From contig JAJCYY010000031.1 in the NCBI GenBank assembly GCA_029262735.1, positions 1 through 64,000 on the forward strand: a stretch of DNA of 64,000 bases. The letters run 5' to 3'. The position numbers were made by a program, and so were the translations under genes. How positions within the stretch are numbered: the first letter of the stretch is position 1; the number at the start of each line of letters is the position of its first letter. The DNA is from Chloroflexota bacterium. GTDB lineage: Bacteria; Chloroflexota; Dehalococcoidia; Lucifugimonadales; Lucifugimonadaceae. Shown here one piece after another: positions 39,626-44,645 of the stretch. Under the pieces are notes generated by a model. It worked only from the letters and a program-made list of their open reading frames with translations. It was not told the DNA's origin and searched no databases.

Positions 39626-40978
39626 CTACGTCTCAACTCGTTTCTTCATCGGCAGGATCAGCGCAAGCACTGCCCCCGCCGCTGCGATCGACCCCGCAAA
39701 CCACACAACACCCGTAAAACCGTTCGCACCGTAGATAAACCCGGCGGCAATCGGCGATACCGACCCGATCACAGCCCCTCCCGAGAACATAAGCGCCGTC
39801 CCCGAACCCTCCGACCCCTTATCGATCTGGTCCATCGCCGCCGCCTGGATGATCGGCATCACCGAGAAGAAAAACAGCCCTAAGAACCCGATCAGCACCG
39901 TCATCGGCGCACCCGTGTCGTACTCCAGGAAGAAAAAGATCAACACCGCCATCAGCGACATCGCAGTTGCAATGACCGGCTTCCGCCCGATGCGGTCCGA
40001 GATGATCCCCATCAGGGGCGTCGACGCAATTCCAGCCATCGTGATCAGCGCAATGTGCAGTCCCACCACGAACGGCGTGTACTCAAGCTCCTCCGTCATG
40101 TACAGCACCAGGAACGCCTGGAACGCCGTGTGCACAGCGCCCCGGAACGCCCCCAGCACCACCATGCCAAGCACGCCCGTGTTCGTGACCAGCTTCTTCA
40201 CCGACGCCGTGTACTCGGCCCGCGTCATGTTGCGTTCCGCCTCCTGCCCCGCCGTCTTCACTCGCAATATGACGGCGACGGCGGTCAGCGCGGCCGGGAT
40301 GAACAGCAGCGCCGAGACGAGCCGCCAGTGCATGCCGTCCCAGCTCAGGCTGAGGAAGCCGATGGTGAATCCGGAGAGCAACATGCCGATGATGATCGGG
40401 CTGAGCGTGTTGCCGACCTGCGCCCCGGTCAGGTGCGCCGACATCGCAACGCCTCGACGCTCCGGGTAGTTTGCGGCGAGTGTCCCGAAGGCGGGCGCGT
40501 GCCAGAGGCTGGTGCCGAAGCCGATGATGCTGACGGCCATGATGACGAGCCAGTACCAGGGCGAGATGCCGACGATCAGGTAGCCGGTGCCGACGAGCAG
40601 CATGCTGATGGTGAGCAGCCAGGCGACCCGGCGCCGGTAGACGTCGGACAGGATGCCCGCAGGGACGTTGGCAACTCCCGATGCCGCCGACTGCGAAGTA
40701 GCAATCCCACCAAATGCCACTTCGCTAAGCGACATAGCCTCACGAATGTGAGGCGAGATCAGGAGAAGCGCGCCCTGCCCAAAGTGCTTGATCCCATGAC
40801 CGGCGGACAGCCCAATCATCAGTCCCAGGGATTTGCGGGGGGCGGGAACATTAGTTGCGGTTTTTGATCCGGTGATACTCGAAGACTGAACTGTATTCAC
40901 GGAGTCTGCCGAAGCTGTTGCGACATTGGTTTGGGCACCGGAGGGCGAACGGCTGACTTGATGATGTTTGCCTGACAT
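39626..40978 (-). CDS. Major facilitator superfamily transporter
   Basis: About 450 residues from ATG 40978 (an extension to 41038 has no family sequence). A 45-residue Ser/Thr-rich N-terminus leads to twelve hydrophobic segments. LSDVYRRRVAWLLTISMLL is motif A in the first half and MGIISDRIGRKPVIATAMSL its repeat in the second. Drug- or sugar-type antiporter; substrate unknown. It lies downstream of the FRG-domain gene (63 bp), on the same strand, but has normal GC and is probably independent of the island. Confidence 0.9.
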   Translation of the reverse strand: MSGKHHQVSRSPSGAQTNVATASADSVNTVQSSSITGSKTATNVPAPRKSLGLMIGLSAGHGIKHFGQGALLLISPHIREAMSLSEVAFGGIATSQSAASGVANVPAGILSDVYRRRVAWLLTISMLLVGTGYLIVGISPWYWLVIMAVSIIGFGTSLWHAPAFGTLAANYPERRGVAMSAHLTGAQVGNTLSPIIIGMLLSGFTIGFLSLSWDGMHWRLVSALLFIPAALTAVAVILRVKTAGQEAERNMTRAEYTASVKKLVTNTGVLGMVVLGAFRGAVHTAFQAFLVLYMTEELEYTPFVVGLHIALITMAGIASTPLMGIISDRIGRKPVIATAMSLMAVLIFFFLEYDTGAPMTVLIGFLGLFFFSVMPIIQAAAMDQIDKGSEGSGTALMFSGGAVIGSVSPIAAGFIYGANGFTGVVWFAGSIAAAGAVLALILPMKKRVET

Positions 40979-41041
40979 CTCGCAAAGTGTACGCTCGCGA
41001 ATTGCAGCTCGTTTGGCACAAGCGGCATACCGTTCCAAGCC

Positions 41042-42010
41042 TTATAGATCATTTAGCAAGTAACCGTATCCGGAGGCTTCGGATTCTTCAAGGAACTCAA
41101 CCACATGTTCAAGACTAGGCATTAAGCTCGCACGGTGAATCTTTCGATGAAATAGACTCGAAATAAGTTCTTTTGCAAGAGATGCCGAAAAAGCGATTAT
41201 TCGATATGGAAGTACAAATTGGCTGTCTATTCCATTCGGCCCCCAATATCCTTTGCGATCGCGCCACCACTCTGTTTCTTCCGAGCATACGGTCTGGAGA
41301 CCTGGATATGAGATTCCGTTGGCCCTGCTGGACGTAAGTCGATCGAGTAGAAACAGACCTCTCTGAGCGCTCAAAAATTCGTTACCTGCATTGGGTACAC
41401 GAACTTCAACAATCGATGATCGGCTCTGGTTCCCAAGTACACGTATTTTACGCAAATATCGTAGATCAATGGCCCAGATCGCACACAACCGACTCGACCA
41501 GTCAGTTCCAGAGTGCAATCGGTCCTGTGATGCGAACCAGAGTGCAATAAATGGATCGTACGTGAAATCTAATAAACGAGTGGCAATTCCGTGATGTTGG
41601 GCAATCGCGAGCATGCCTAAGTGTTCGTCCGATGGCCAGTTATCCTTCCAATAGACGTCATCGTGCCGTGCGTTTTCCGACAATCGTCGCAGATGATTTA
41701 GATCTCCAGGCATCAATATTCCGGATTGATCGGCGAAGTGTGAAAAGGAGAGCAGCGACTGATACTCGAACCACGCTTGGCTTTCAGCAGTTTCAAGCGG
41801 ACCTATCGTCTTAAACTCGCCGAACCCCCAACCCTCCTCGTGTCTGAGCGATTTGGGCACGAGGCCCCATGAGAGGTCTGCCTGACCTCTGAATGCGATA
41901 TCGCCATATTTGGCACCCTTCCAAGAATCGTCTGTTAAATCCAACGCGCCAAACAGAGTCCTAGACGCGAGGTACCGTTGAACGTATGGTCTCCACTCTT
42001 GTTGGGTCAT
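41042..42010 (-). CDS. FRG-domain protein, putative effector of a retron
   Basis: 322 residues. The FRG signature is AFRGQADLSWGLVPKSLRH at about 39-57 (F40, R41, G42) and AQHHGIATRLLDFTYDPFIALWFAS at about 137-161. FRG domains are found in proteins of prokaryotic conflict systems; their activity is unknown. The ATG overlaps the stop of the reverse transcriptase by 4 nt, so both come from one message. GC is well below that of the flanks, fitting recent transfer. The likely job is abortive-type defence when the retron DNA/RNA complex is disturbed (inference). Confidence 0.85.
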   Translation of the reverse strand: MTQQEWRPYVQRYLASRTLFGALDLTDDSWKGAKYGDIAFRGQADLSWGLVPKSLRHEEGWGFGEFKTIGPLETAESQAWFEYQSLLSFSHFADQSGILMPGDLNHLRRLSENARHDDVYWKDNWPSDEHLGMLAIAQHHGIATRLLDFTYDPFIALWFASQDRLHSGTDWSSRLCAIWAIDLRYLRKIRVLGNQSRSSIVEVRVPNAGNEFLSAQRGLFLLDRLTSSRANGISYPGLQTVCSEETEWWRDRKGYWGPNGIDSQFVLPYRIIAFSASLAKELISSLFHRKIHRASLMPSLEHVVEFLEESEASGYGYLLNDL

Positions 42011-43056
42011 TCTCGCCCGCTAACCAATGCTTCATCAAGATGGCGAAATTTTTTCCAATAAGTCTGGAATAGAACGTCGTGTTCGCCACGAACATTTTTC
42101 AAAAACTCAAGTTTCCCTCGTATGTGGCGCCACATACTTGGTGGATCTCTATCTGTACGACGGTGTTTCAAAAAATCATTTTGAAACACATCTTCAGCGG
42201 CATCGTAGCCCATGACTTCCCATTTGTGCATAACTGAGCGCAAATTCCGCACGTACTTGCGGCGAACGTTTATTTTTCTATTGACCACTAGTCCAGTAAC
42301 CAACTGCCGATTGTTTTTATGCTGCAACCTTAGCTTATTTCGATTAAGGGTAAAACCATTGTTGTTCAGAATCAGCTCGATGTCTGAACTGATTGTCGGT
42401 GTTCCACCCAAACTACCATCCGAAGTCGCCGCGATGGCCGACGGAAAAACTTTGACTGAGCTGGAAAATGTCAAATCATCAGCGTATCTCGAATAAAAGC
42501 AACTGTTCGCAGCTGCAAGTCTAGCGAATGCTCCGTCCATTCGTAGGCTAATCATATTTGAAATTATCGGTGAAGTTGGTGCCCCCTGCGCTAGTCTGCC
42601 TTCGTGAGTACACATATGCGCCAGTGTCGAGGCAATTGAGGCATTCAAGTTAAACGGTGCACCATAAAATAGTCCATATACGCGTTGAAAAGTAATACTA
42701 CCGAAAAAATCTTCTAAATCTAAATTAAGAACCCATTCTTTACGAAGATGCATTCTGGCATTTTCAACTAGCGGATTTCTTTTTCCTAGTACAAATCCGA
42801 ATACGTACGGTGGAGCGCGGTAAACCTCAGATAATTTATTGGACAGAGAGCGCTGAGCAGATTTTAAAAACGGGTTAGGTTCGCTGATTGTACGCATCCC
42901 AGTTGTTTTTTTCGGAATGCTGAAATTGCGATACCGTTGCGTTGAGTTCGAGCGATATAAATGCCAGATTAGACGTTTGTAGGAAACACCCAAGAAATCC
43001 GCAAGGTCGTTCCTGTCTGTTAATCCTCTAAGTTGAGTCCATGTGTTCAACGTCAT
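42007..43056 (-). CDS. Retron-type reverse transcriptase
   Basis: 349 residues. RT motifs: NLDLEDFFGSI with catalytic Asp113, QGAPTSPIISNMIS at about 157-170, SRYADDLTFSS with YADD at 191-194, and NNNGFTLNRNKLRL. Two retron marks are intact: NARMH at 99-103 (the NAxxH box) and LVTGLVVN (VTG at 253-255). Both are absent from group II intron and DGR enzymes. It would make msDNA from an adjacent RNA; a fitting RNA region starts 5 nt upstream. There is no Shine-Dalgarno site before the ATG, since that place is occupied by the 3' arm of the inverted repeat. The gene is AT-rich compared with its flanks. Confidence 0.92.
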   Translation of the reverse strand: MTLNTWTQLRGLTDRNDLADFLGVSYKRLIWHLYRSNSTQRYRNFSIPKKTTGMRTISEPNPFLKSAQRSLSNKLSEVYRAPPYVFGFVLGKRNPLVENARMHLRKEWVLNLDLEDFFGSITFQRVYGLFYGAPFNLNASIASTLAHMCTHEGRLAQGAPTSPIISNMISLRMDGAFARLAAANSCFYSRYADDLTFSSSVKVFPSAIAATSDGSLGGTPTISSDIELILNNNGFTLNRNKLRLQHKNNRQLVTGLVVNRKINVRRKYVRNLRSVMHKWEVMGYDAAEDVFQNDFLKHRRTDRDPPSMWRHIRGKLEFLKNVRGEHDVLFQTYWKKFRHLDEALVSGRE

Positions 43057-43061
43057 CTGAA

Positions 43062-43222
43062 GTTGTAGCCCGCACGACTGTGTCTCTTATCACAAGAGGC
43101 ACAACGTGAATTAATACACGATATCCCAATATAGGCTACTGGCATGCCGTGCATTACGTAATACACCTTGTTTTCACTCGCTGCGAAAGCACAGCGATAT
43201 TTCACAGCGTGCGGGCCACAAC
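43062..43222 (-). ncRNA. Candidate retron msr-msd RNA
   Basis: On the minus strand GTTGTGGCCCGCACG (43222-43208) and CGTGCGGGCTACAAC (43076-43062) pair over 15 bp with a single G-U; CTGTG and CACAG extend this by five pairs across one bulged U. These are the positions of the a1/a2 arms in retrons, and the second arm ends 5 nt before the RT start. Inside are CGCTG/CAGCG (msr-like hairpin), TAATGCACG/CGTGTATTA (nine pairs, one G-U) as a possible msd stem, and a hairpin TGTG-CTCTT/AAGAG-CACA. The total of 161 nt is in the retron range. A typical branching-G context (AGC after a1) is not obvious. Confidence 0.75.
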
Positions 43223-43259: not shown

Positions 43260-44645
43260 CTAAACCCCCAGCTCCTTCTCTACCTCGCCCAAACTCTCGT
43301 CTATTGCCGTTGCTAGCTCGTCCAGTTCGTCTGCTGTGATTACTAGCGGCGGGGCTATTGGGACTATGTAGGCCGGGACACGGATCCAGACGCCTCGGGC
43401 GATCAGCTTCTCCGTCAGGCGAGCATTCACCTTCAGCGAAGGATCGAAATGCTGCTTCGTCTTGCGGTCCGCAACGAACTCGATACCCTGGATCAGCCCT
43501 GCGCCACGCACATCGCCGACCATCGGGTGCTTCTCCTTCATCTCGGCCAACCGCTCCGCAAGCTGCTCGCCCCGCGCCCTTGCATTGTCCACCAGCCCTT
43601 CTCGCTCGACTATTGCAAGGTTCGCCAGCGCCGCCGCCGCTCCGCCCGGGTGCGCCGAGTACGTGTACATGTGACTCCACGTCTTGTCCGGCCCGCCCGA
43701 GAACACATCGGCGATCTCGGCCGTCGCAATGCTGCCTCCAACCGGGAAGTAGCCTGACGTTATTCCCTTCGCAAAGCTCATGATGTCCGGCGTCACGCCC
43801 ACGAAGTCGGCCCCGAACCACTCGCCAAGCCTGCCGAAGCCCGTGATCACCTCATCGAAGATCAGGACAACTCCGTACCTGTCACATATTTCGCGAACCA
43901 GCGGCCAGTAGTTCGATGGCGGTATCACCCCGCCAAGCGGCTGTGAGACCGGCTCGCCGATCACCGCTGACACGCTCTCCGGCCCCTCGAACAGGATCGC
44001 CTCTTCTATCGCCTTCGCAGAAAGCTCACCGCACTCCTCGGGCGAACTGGACCCGAACTCGCACCTGTAGGCGTGCGGCCCGGGCACGGTAACCACGTTG
44101 GCGGGCCTCGGCTGGTAGTCGGTGCGGGGGAAGCCGGGATGGCCGCCGAGCCACATGGTGCCGTAGGTGGAGCCGTGGTACGAGCCCTTGCGGGAGATGA
44201 CCTTGTAGCGGCCCTTGTCACCCCGGCGCATGTGGTACGCCTGCGCCATCTTCAGGCTCGATTCGTTGGCCTCGGAGCCGCCCTGGCAGAAGAAGGTGCG
44301 CGTGAGGTCGCCGGGTGTGATCTCGGCGAGCTTGGCGGCGAGCTGGATGGTGGCGGGTGTTGCGCCTGCGTAGACGTTCATGGAGATGCGGGAGAGCTGT
44401 TCGTAGACGGCTCGGGCGATCTCTTCTCGACCGTGACCGGCGTTGCGGAAGTACATACCGGAGATGCCGTCGATGTACTTTTTGCCGTCCATGGCGGTGA
44501 CGTAGACGCCTTCTGCGGAGTCCATGACGAGCGGACCGCCTTCTTCGGCGAGCTGCGCAGGGTTGGTCATGCCGACGAAGAGGTGCCGGTTGGCAGCGTC
44601 CTGGAGGGCTGAGTTGTCGGTTGATGGCGGGAGTGTTGTGGTCAT
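43260..44645 (-). CDS. Class III PLP-dependent aminotransferase
   Basis: 461 residues. LIFDEVITGFGRLGEWFGAD at about 233-252 contains the PLP-binding Asp; SFAKGITSGYFPVGG carries the Schiff-base Lys at about 261. The start MTNPAQLAEEGGPLVMDSAEGVYV is that of omega-amino-acid/beta-alanine:pyruvate aminotransferases and adenosylmethionine-type relatives. It transfers an amino group from an amine or omega-amino acid to pyruvate or a keto acid. Its 3' end adjoins the AT-rich retron island (38 nt to the msr region), so the island was inserted between it and the MFS gene. Confidence 0.92.
   Translation of the reverse strand: MTTTLPPSTDNSALQDAANRHLFVGMTNPAQLAEEGGPLVMDSAEGVYVTAMDGKKYIDGISGMYFRNAGHGREEIARAVYEQLSRISMNVYAGATPATIQLAAKLAEITPGDLTRTFFCQGGSEANESSLKMAQAYHMRRGDKGRYKVISRKGSYHGSTYGTMWLGGHPGFPRTDYQPRPANVVTVPGPHAYRCEFGSSSPEECGELSAKAIEEAILFEGPESVSAVIGEPVSQPLGGVIPPSNYWPLVREICDRYGVVLIFDEVITGFGRLGEWFGADFVGVTPDIMSFAKGITSGYFPVGGSIATAEIADVFSGGPDKTWSHMYTYSAHPGGAAAALANLAIVEREGLVDNARARGEQLAERLAEMKEKHPMVGDVRGAGLIQGIEFVADRKTKQHFDPSLKVNARLTEKLIARGVWIRVPAYIVPIAPPLVITADELDELATAIDESLGEVEKELGV

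Follow-up and report, generated by a model that had tools for sequence, protein, structure and literature searches.

The retron-like RNA, the reverse transcriptase (RT) and the FRG-domain protein encoded side by side in a Chloroflexota bacterium probably form one defence operon, made up of a retron ncRNA, an unfused RT and an overlapping FRG effector gene, as our analysis of a 64 kb stretch of its DNA (the window) suggests. We put the probability of this reading at roughly 0.85. It draws on the paired a1 and a2 arms of the RNA, an msr hairpin of the kind seen in the clade of Eco2 and types XI and XII, the RT family, the retention of FRG with the RT across families of one order and the location in a hotspot. 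Most probably the system is a tripartite retron that works by abortive infection and uses a new kind of effector.

Retron types are set by RT clade and effector. We give about an even chance to the more specific proposal that an RT with a separate FRG protein makes up a previously unclassified retron type, spread across families of one order, in which the msDNA would gate an NAD+-consuming effector of the ART superfamily. No retron paired with FRG was found in the profile libraries or the open-access papers, a comparison that leaves out the 2020 retron classification. Judged from these sources, what is new here is the FRG partner, more so than the ncRNA itself.

Paired arms and hairpins upstream of the RT gene

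All features of the RNA lie on the minus strand. Arm a1 (GTTGTGGCCCGCACG, 43208-43222) is defined by its inverted repeat with 43062-43076, and the arms of relatives covary. The a2 side (43062-43082), defined by the repeat and the fold, comprises CACAG (43078-43082), a bulged T at 43077 and the a2 arm proper (CGTGCGGGCTACAAC, 43062-43076). Read on this strand, 43222-43208 pairs with 43076-43062 through 15 base pairs including one G-U (93% complementary), and in the minimum-free-energy fold CTGTG (43207-43203) and CACAG continue the stem past the bulge to 20 pairs. An earlier note on this DNA had described a 20-bp inverted repeat upstream of the RT, 161 nt end to end, with its second arm ending 5 nt before the gene; the repeat (as 15 + 5 pairs) and the geometry both hold, TTCAG being the five nucleotides between a2 and the RT ATG at 43056.

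The RNA folds at -80.6 kcal/mol, compared with -47.6 +/- 4.0 for 200 dinucleotide shuffles (z -8.17), none of which folds as well; folding, a check the note had proposed, returns a1 and a2 paired. The ungapped arm score of 38.5 (shuffle mean 22.6, sd 3.1) was reached by 1 of 400 shuffles over 350 nt and by none of 600 over 190 nt. The window was also tiled into 182 pieces of 350 nt, all of which score lower, with the tiling itself cutting the arm repeat. On these shuffle counts a chance repeat is rejected. Hairpins are present between the arms as the note had said, with 8 pairs in the msr and 10 pairs inside a longer msd hairpin and not with its one nine-pair stem. A search of Rfam at gathering thresholds gave no match.

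Similar arms were found upstream of the RT relatives. The best upstream inverted repeat lies where retron arms would (span 110-175, ending -66 to +5 of the RT start) in 80 of 99 relatives, compared with 60 of 300 control pieces taken inside RT genes, and so the arms whose absence from RT homologues the earlier note would have counted against itself are mostly in place. When a score above the control 95th percentile is also demanded, 63 of the 99 relatives remain and 2 of the 300 control pieces. Because 20 diverse ncRNAs could not be usefully aligned with MAFFT, covariation was assessed on an alignable subset of 35 Eco2-type relatives with the window excluded. Twelve of 13 arm pairs are changed on both sides in this subset, 96.7% of the arm cells are paired compared with 30-44% in slid controls, and the arm covariation score is 0.754 compared with 0.06-0.20 in the slid versions. 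The msr hairpin of these relatives also covaries.

We built a covariance model, R1, from 35 Eco2-type ncRNAs, again excluding the window. Against the whole 64 kb it gives a single match, at 43197-43165 (18.4 bits, E 0.0054, the E-values of this model being rough), and no second one up to E 10. The match consists of the hairpin UCGCUGUG-CUUU-CGCAGCGA with GUGAAAACAAGGU after it, and falls precisely between the two arms; it is limited to the msr core, and the arms and msd of the window lie outside it. R1 found no match in the six other RT-FRG loci described below. Since it matches the msr core only here and nothing there, the RNAs of the FRG type appear to have diverged from the Eco2 type, and the predicted window RNA is related to that type but diverged. 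The R1 match, the covariation and the arms upstream of RT relatives support the msr-msd reading of the earlier note, and with it the interpretation of the inverted repeat as the a1/a2 stem of a putative retron ncRNA built like that of Eco2 (Ec67).

An alternative hypothesis could be that the repeat is an intrinsic terminator or an attenuator of RT translation, in an RNA that is not itself reverse transcribed. In its favour, the aminotransferase gene upstream ends ~38 nt before a1, and a2 abuts the RT start, where it would cover the ribosome-binding region; by eye no obvious Shine-Dalgarno stands just before the RT ATG, and that region lies inside a2. Yet there is no T tract and the terminator scan reports none here, the msr hairpin and AGUGAAAACAAGGU fit R1, and in most relatives 15-60 nt separate the end of a2 from the RT start, so a translation block is not a shared trait. 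We give this hypothesis hardly any credence.

In the retron ncRNA that we prefer, the msr hairpin (43178-43197), seen in both the fold and the R1 match, is followed by a conserved msr stretch, GAGUGAAAACAAGGU (43165-43179), which lies inside the R1 match and whose first two bases close the hairpin; its part AGTGAAAACAAGGT is present in one relative (L076) and nearly the same in another (L040). The msd (template) region would occupy 43083-43171, from fold and register, its boundary to the msr being approximate, and folds into a long hairpin (43101-43171) and a small one (43084-43098). Eco2 has a single RNA stem-loop, one long msd hairpin and rG15 just after a1 (PMC12405507). The Eco2-type relatives read [GGCA]-G-ATTT-hairpin on the 5' side and TAAGAG-[TGCC] on the 3' side, with TAAGAGT conserved before a2; the window ncRNA reads [CTGT]-G-AAATA-hairpin and ATAAGAGA-C-[ACAG]. 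Eco2 itself has [a1]-G15-ATTT-hairpin, and the equivalent G in the window, followed by AAATA and the hairpin, is G43203, in the inner a1 extension (CTGTG, 43203-43207) that pairs with 43078-43082. From this register we infer that G43203 would naturally serve as the 2'-5' branch guanosine and A43083 as the first base of the template. Read by eye, each of the seven RT-FRG loci has a G at the candidate branch position. The branch-point context, which the earlier note took to differ from textbook retrons, is not clearly unusual. With Retron-Eco2/Ec67 (type I-C, an RT-TOPRIM fusion) the window has in common the order a1, single msr hairpin, msd and a2, the GUG-nnn-CGC hairpin core with the stretch after it, and a candidate branch G placed by register (rG15 in Eco2, PMC12405507), whereas its msd and arm sequences differ.

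An unfused RT in a clade of fused ones

The RT (349 aa, 42007-43056, minus strand) is identified as a retron RT by PADLOC, by its nearest solved chain and by its motifs, namely NARMH (NAxxH, X region), YADD and VTG (Y region). Residues N99, A100, H103, D193, D194, V253 and G255 are invariant over 17 RTs. The best PADLOC models are RT-TIR_XII (5e-119), RT-Protease_XI (6e-116) and RT-Toprim_I-C (2e-101), and the nearest solved chain belongs to Retron Ec67/Eco2 (9lm3, 4e-52). No other RVT_1 gene was found in the assembly. A DRT or a group II intron RT was rejected, the NCBIfam matches being far below cut-off.

No effector domain is fused to the window RT, as Pfam gives RVT_1 only, the protein ends at 349 aa and the PADLOC matches span the RT part only (e.g. 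profile positions 11-332 of 475). The TOPRIM, protease or TIR fusion that marks types I-C, XI and XII is absent from it. The RT falls inside a clade of 74 rows (support 99/92 in the larger tree), nearly all members of which are extended by a fusion at the C-terminus. In the scanned members we identified TIR, trypsin-like, Mrr-like and AAA domains, and others match the TOPRIM-fused Ec67 family. These RTs are mostly 470-620 aa long, and the window RT stops where their linkers begin. Its branch is long in both trees, neither of which gives it a clear sister. Herpetosiphon belongs to the Chloroflexota, the same phylum as the host.

Compared with Eco2/Ec67, to which it is homologous, the window RT is unfused and has no TOPRIM, with a separate FRG gene as the proposed effector. 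Types XII (RT-TIR) and XI (RT-protease) supply the best PADLOC RT models and share its clade, whereas the window RT has neither a fused TIR nor a fused protease, and FRG belongs to another domain family. Other defence systems contain TIR domains that consume NAD+.

Other arrangements were observed among the RT relatives. One clade RT (L008:994-1587) has an Mrr-like restriction endonuclease domain as its fusion partner (Pfam Mrr_cat 1e-7), a type of effector not seen in I-C, XI and XII, and a cyanobacterial one (L023:4931-6229) has an AAA_5 domain. At two further loci (L019, L020) the RT is unfused, and an unknown protein and an AAA ATPase come after it.

The FRG protein as proposed effector

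The start codon of the next gene overlaps the RT stop (ATGA). This gene encodes an FRG-domain protein of 322 aa (41042-42010, minus strand), which we propose as the effector from its Pfam FRG and PADLOC PDC-S15 matches and from RT adjacency in six other loci. The Pfam FRG (PF08867) match has an E-value of 4.2e-17 and 63.3 bits at a curated cut-off of 25, and the PDC-S15 match an E-value of 7.9e-24. These matches and the motifs FRG, QHHG and TRLLD are shared with FRG/PDC-S15 proteins at large, but the other members found stand without a retron RT while the window's subfamily is linked to one. To our knowledge, FRG domains are widespread, uncharacterised defence candidates. The structure model of the protein has a pLDDT of 82.6, and a fold search of it against the PDB gave no significant match (best E 0.38), with a few weak ADP-ribosyltransferase chains in the top 20. 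Published work assigns FRG to the ADP-ribosyltransferase superfamily and suggests that it is an NADase and an anti-viral effector (PMC9503650), and from this literature we infer that the protein may be an NAD+/ADP-ribose enzyme.

By analogy with characterised retrons, we speculate that the RT would prime at G43203, copy the msd into DNA and stay bound to the msDNA. The RT-msDNA complex would keep the FRG protein inactive until phage interference with the msDNA or the complex activates it, and active FRG would halt growth or kill the cell, blocking the spread of the phage. Its toxicity would probably act via NAD+, with FRG as an ADP-ribosyltransferase-like enzyme or an NADase. This NAD+ step is the weakest of the mechanism because the FRG model gave no significant structural match, and we regard its odds as evenly balanced. 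The effector would be supplied as a separate subunit, unlike in the fused relatives.

A separate effector is known from the Ec86 retron, for which NAD(P)+ hydrolysis is an established output (reviewed in PMC12948488). Retron-Eco1/Ec86 (type II) is thus like the window in combining RT, msDNA and a separate effector; its effector, however, is ribosyltransferase-like of another family, not FRG, and its msr layout and RT clade differ. If our proposal is true, FRG would be another NAD+-directed retron effector besides the Ec86 effector and TIR, and FRG proteins would have their first defined activation mechanism. An FRG partner conserved in seven loci would add an effector kind to retrons. Two questions become testable: the function of FRG domains, and the way in which a separate subunit can do the work of an effector that relatives carry on the RT itself. 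Genome editing uses RTs of lineages far from this one.

Linkage of RT and FRG within the order

The RT-FRG pair occupies an interval bounded by the aminotransferase gene (43260-44645) and an MFS gene (39626-41038), which is kept in same-genus genomes with other cargo. This cargo (L244, L245, L247, L248) includes a dCTP deaminase (PADLOC 7e-146), a DUF5131 and PDC-M41A pair and NTase/HepT genes, and a short SIR2-like fragment, a weak match, was seen at the same site in a congener. By its gene content the interval is a defence hotspot in the genus, RT-FRG being one of its cargoes. The assembly is a draft with 6% contamination; the flanks match same-genus genomes, and this synteny supports the locus being native despite the contamination.

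The locus could instead be a decayed retron, with a defunct ncRNA or RT, kept as a remnant in the hotspot. The long RT branch without a close sister, the broken RT frame in a related locus and the SIR2-like fragment would agree with decay, but neither window ORF is truncated, every family-invariant residue is present, and the fold is exceptionally stable around a conserved msr core. We consider decay very unlikely.

The hotspot also takes unrelated cargo, and the FRG gene could be an independent single-gene defence candidate that came to stand downstream of a genuine retron RNA and RT by chance. FRG/PDC-S15 genes are indeed mostly solitary, ~100 FRG loci from plasmids, Pseudomonadota and viral contigs having no adjacent retron RT. 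Against this, when 247 genomes of the host's order were searched, the FRG subfamily of the window turned up elsewhere too (E 1e-41 to 1e-50, one fragment 3e-17). Seven genes of this subfamily in the order, from at least five genera, have their upstream DNA present, and in every case a retron RT in the same orientation comes directly before FRG. The search supplies six further RT-FRG loci (L257-L262), with the RT immediately 5' of FRG in the same layout. The seven retron-linked FRG proteins form one clade, on one side of a branch with support 94/90, and the hypothesis that the FRG-linked RTs arose once survives the AU test (p-AU 0.467). The ATGA overlap in the window and the lack, in FRG-linked RTs, of the fused effector that most relatives carry also speak against independence, which we hold to be unlikely.

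Our preferred reading, a single defence operon, also draws on the RNAs of the other loci. Arms of ~12-17 pairs precede the RT in all six further RT-FRG loci, and the ncRNA folds are unusually stable in the five RT-FRG loci folded (z -3.5 to -6.9). In the arms of five RT-FRG loci of one family every cell pairs (100%); 4 of the 15 pairs are changed on both sides and none is broken.

We found no other RT-FRG pairs in plasmids, viral contigs or genomes of other groups including Pseudomonadota, which together supplied ~115 RT loci and ~100 FRG loci, nor any further ones in a class-wide sample of 207 genomes. Single-sequence RT or FRG queries had no match in the viral contigs, whereas alignment queries did. 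Within what was sampled, the RT-FRG pair looks confined to the host's order.

Some of the pairs vary in detail. The RT at L261:3289-4362 is split into two frames (88 + 241 aa), by decay or sequence error. In the same family as the window, the RT at L257:2716-3801 has YVDD instead of YADD and no VTG, and its overlap with FRG is ~70 nt. One genome (G1049) carries two RT-FRG retrons (L259 and L262) on different contigs.
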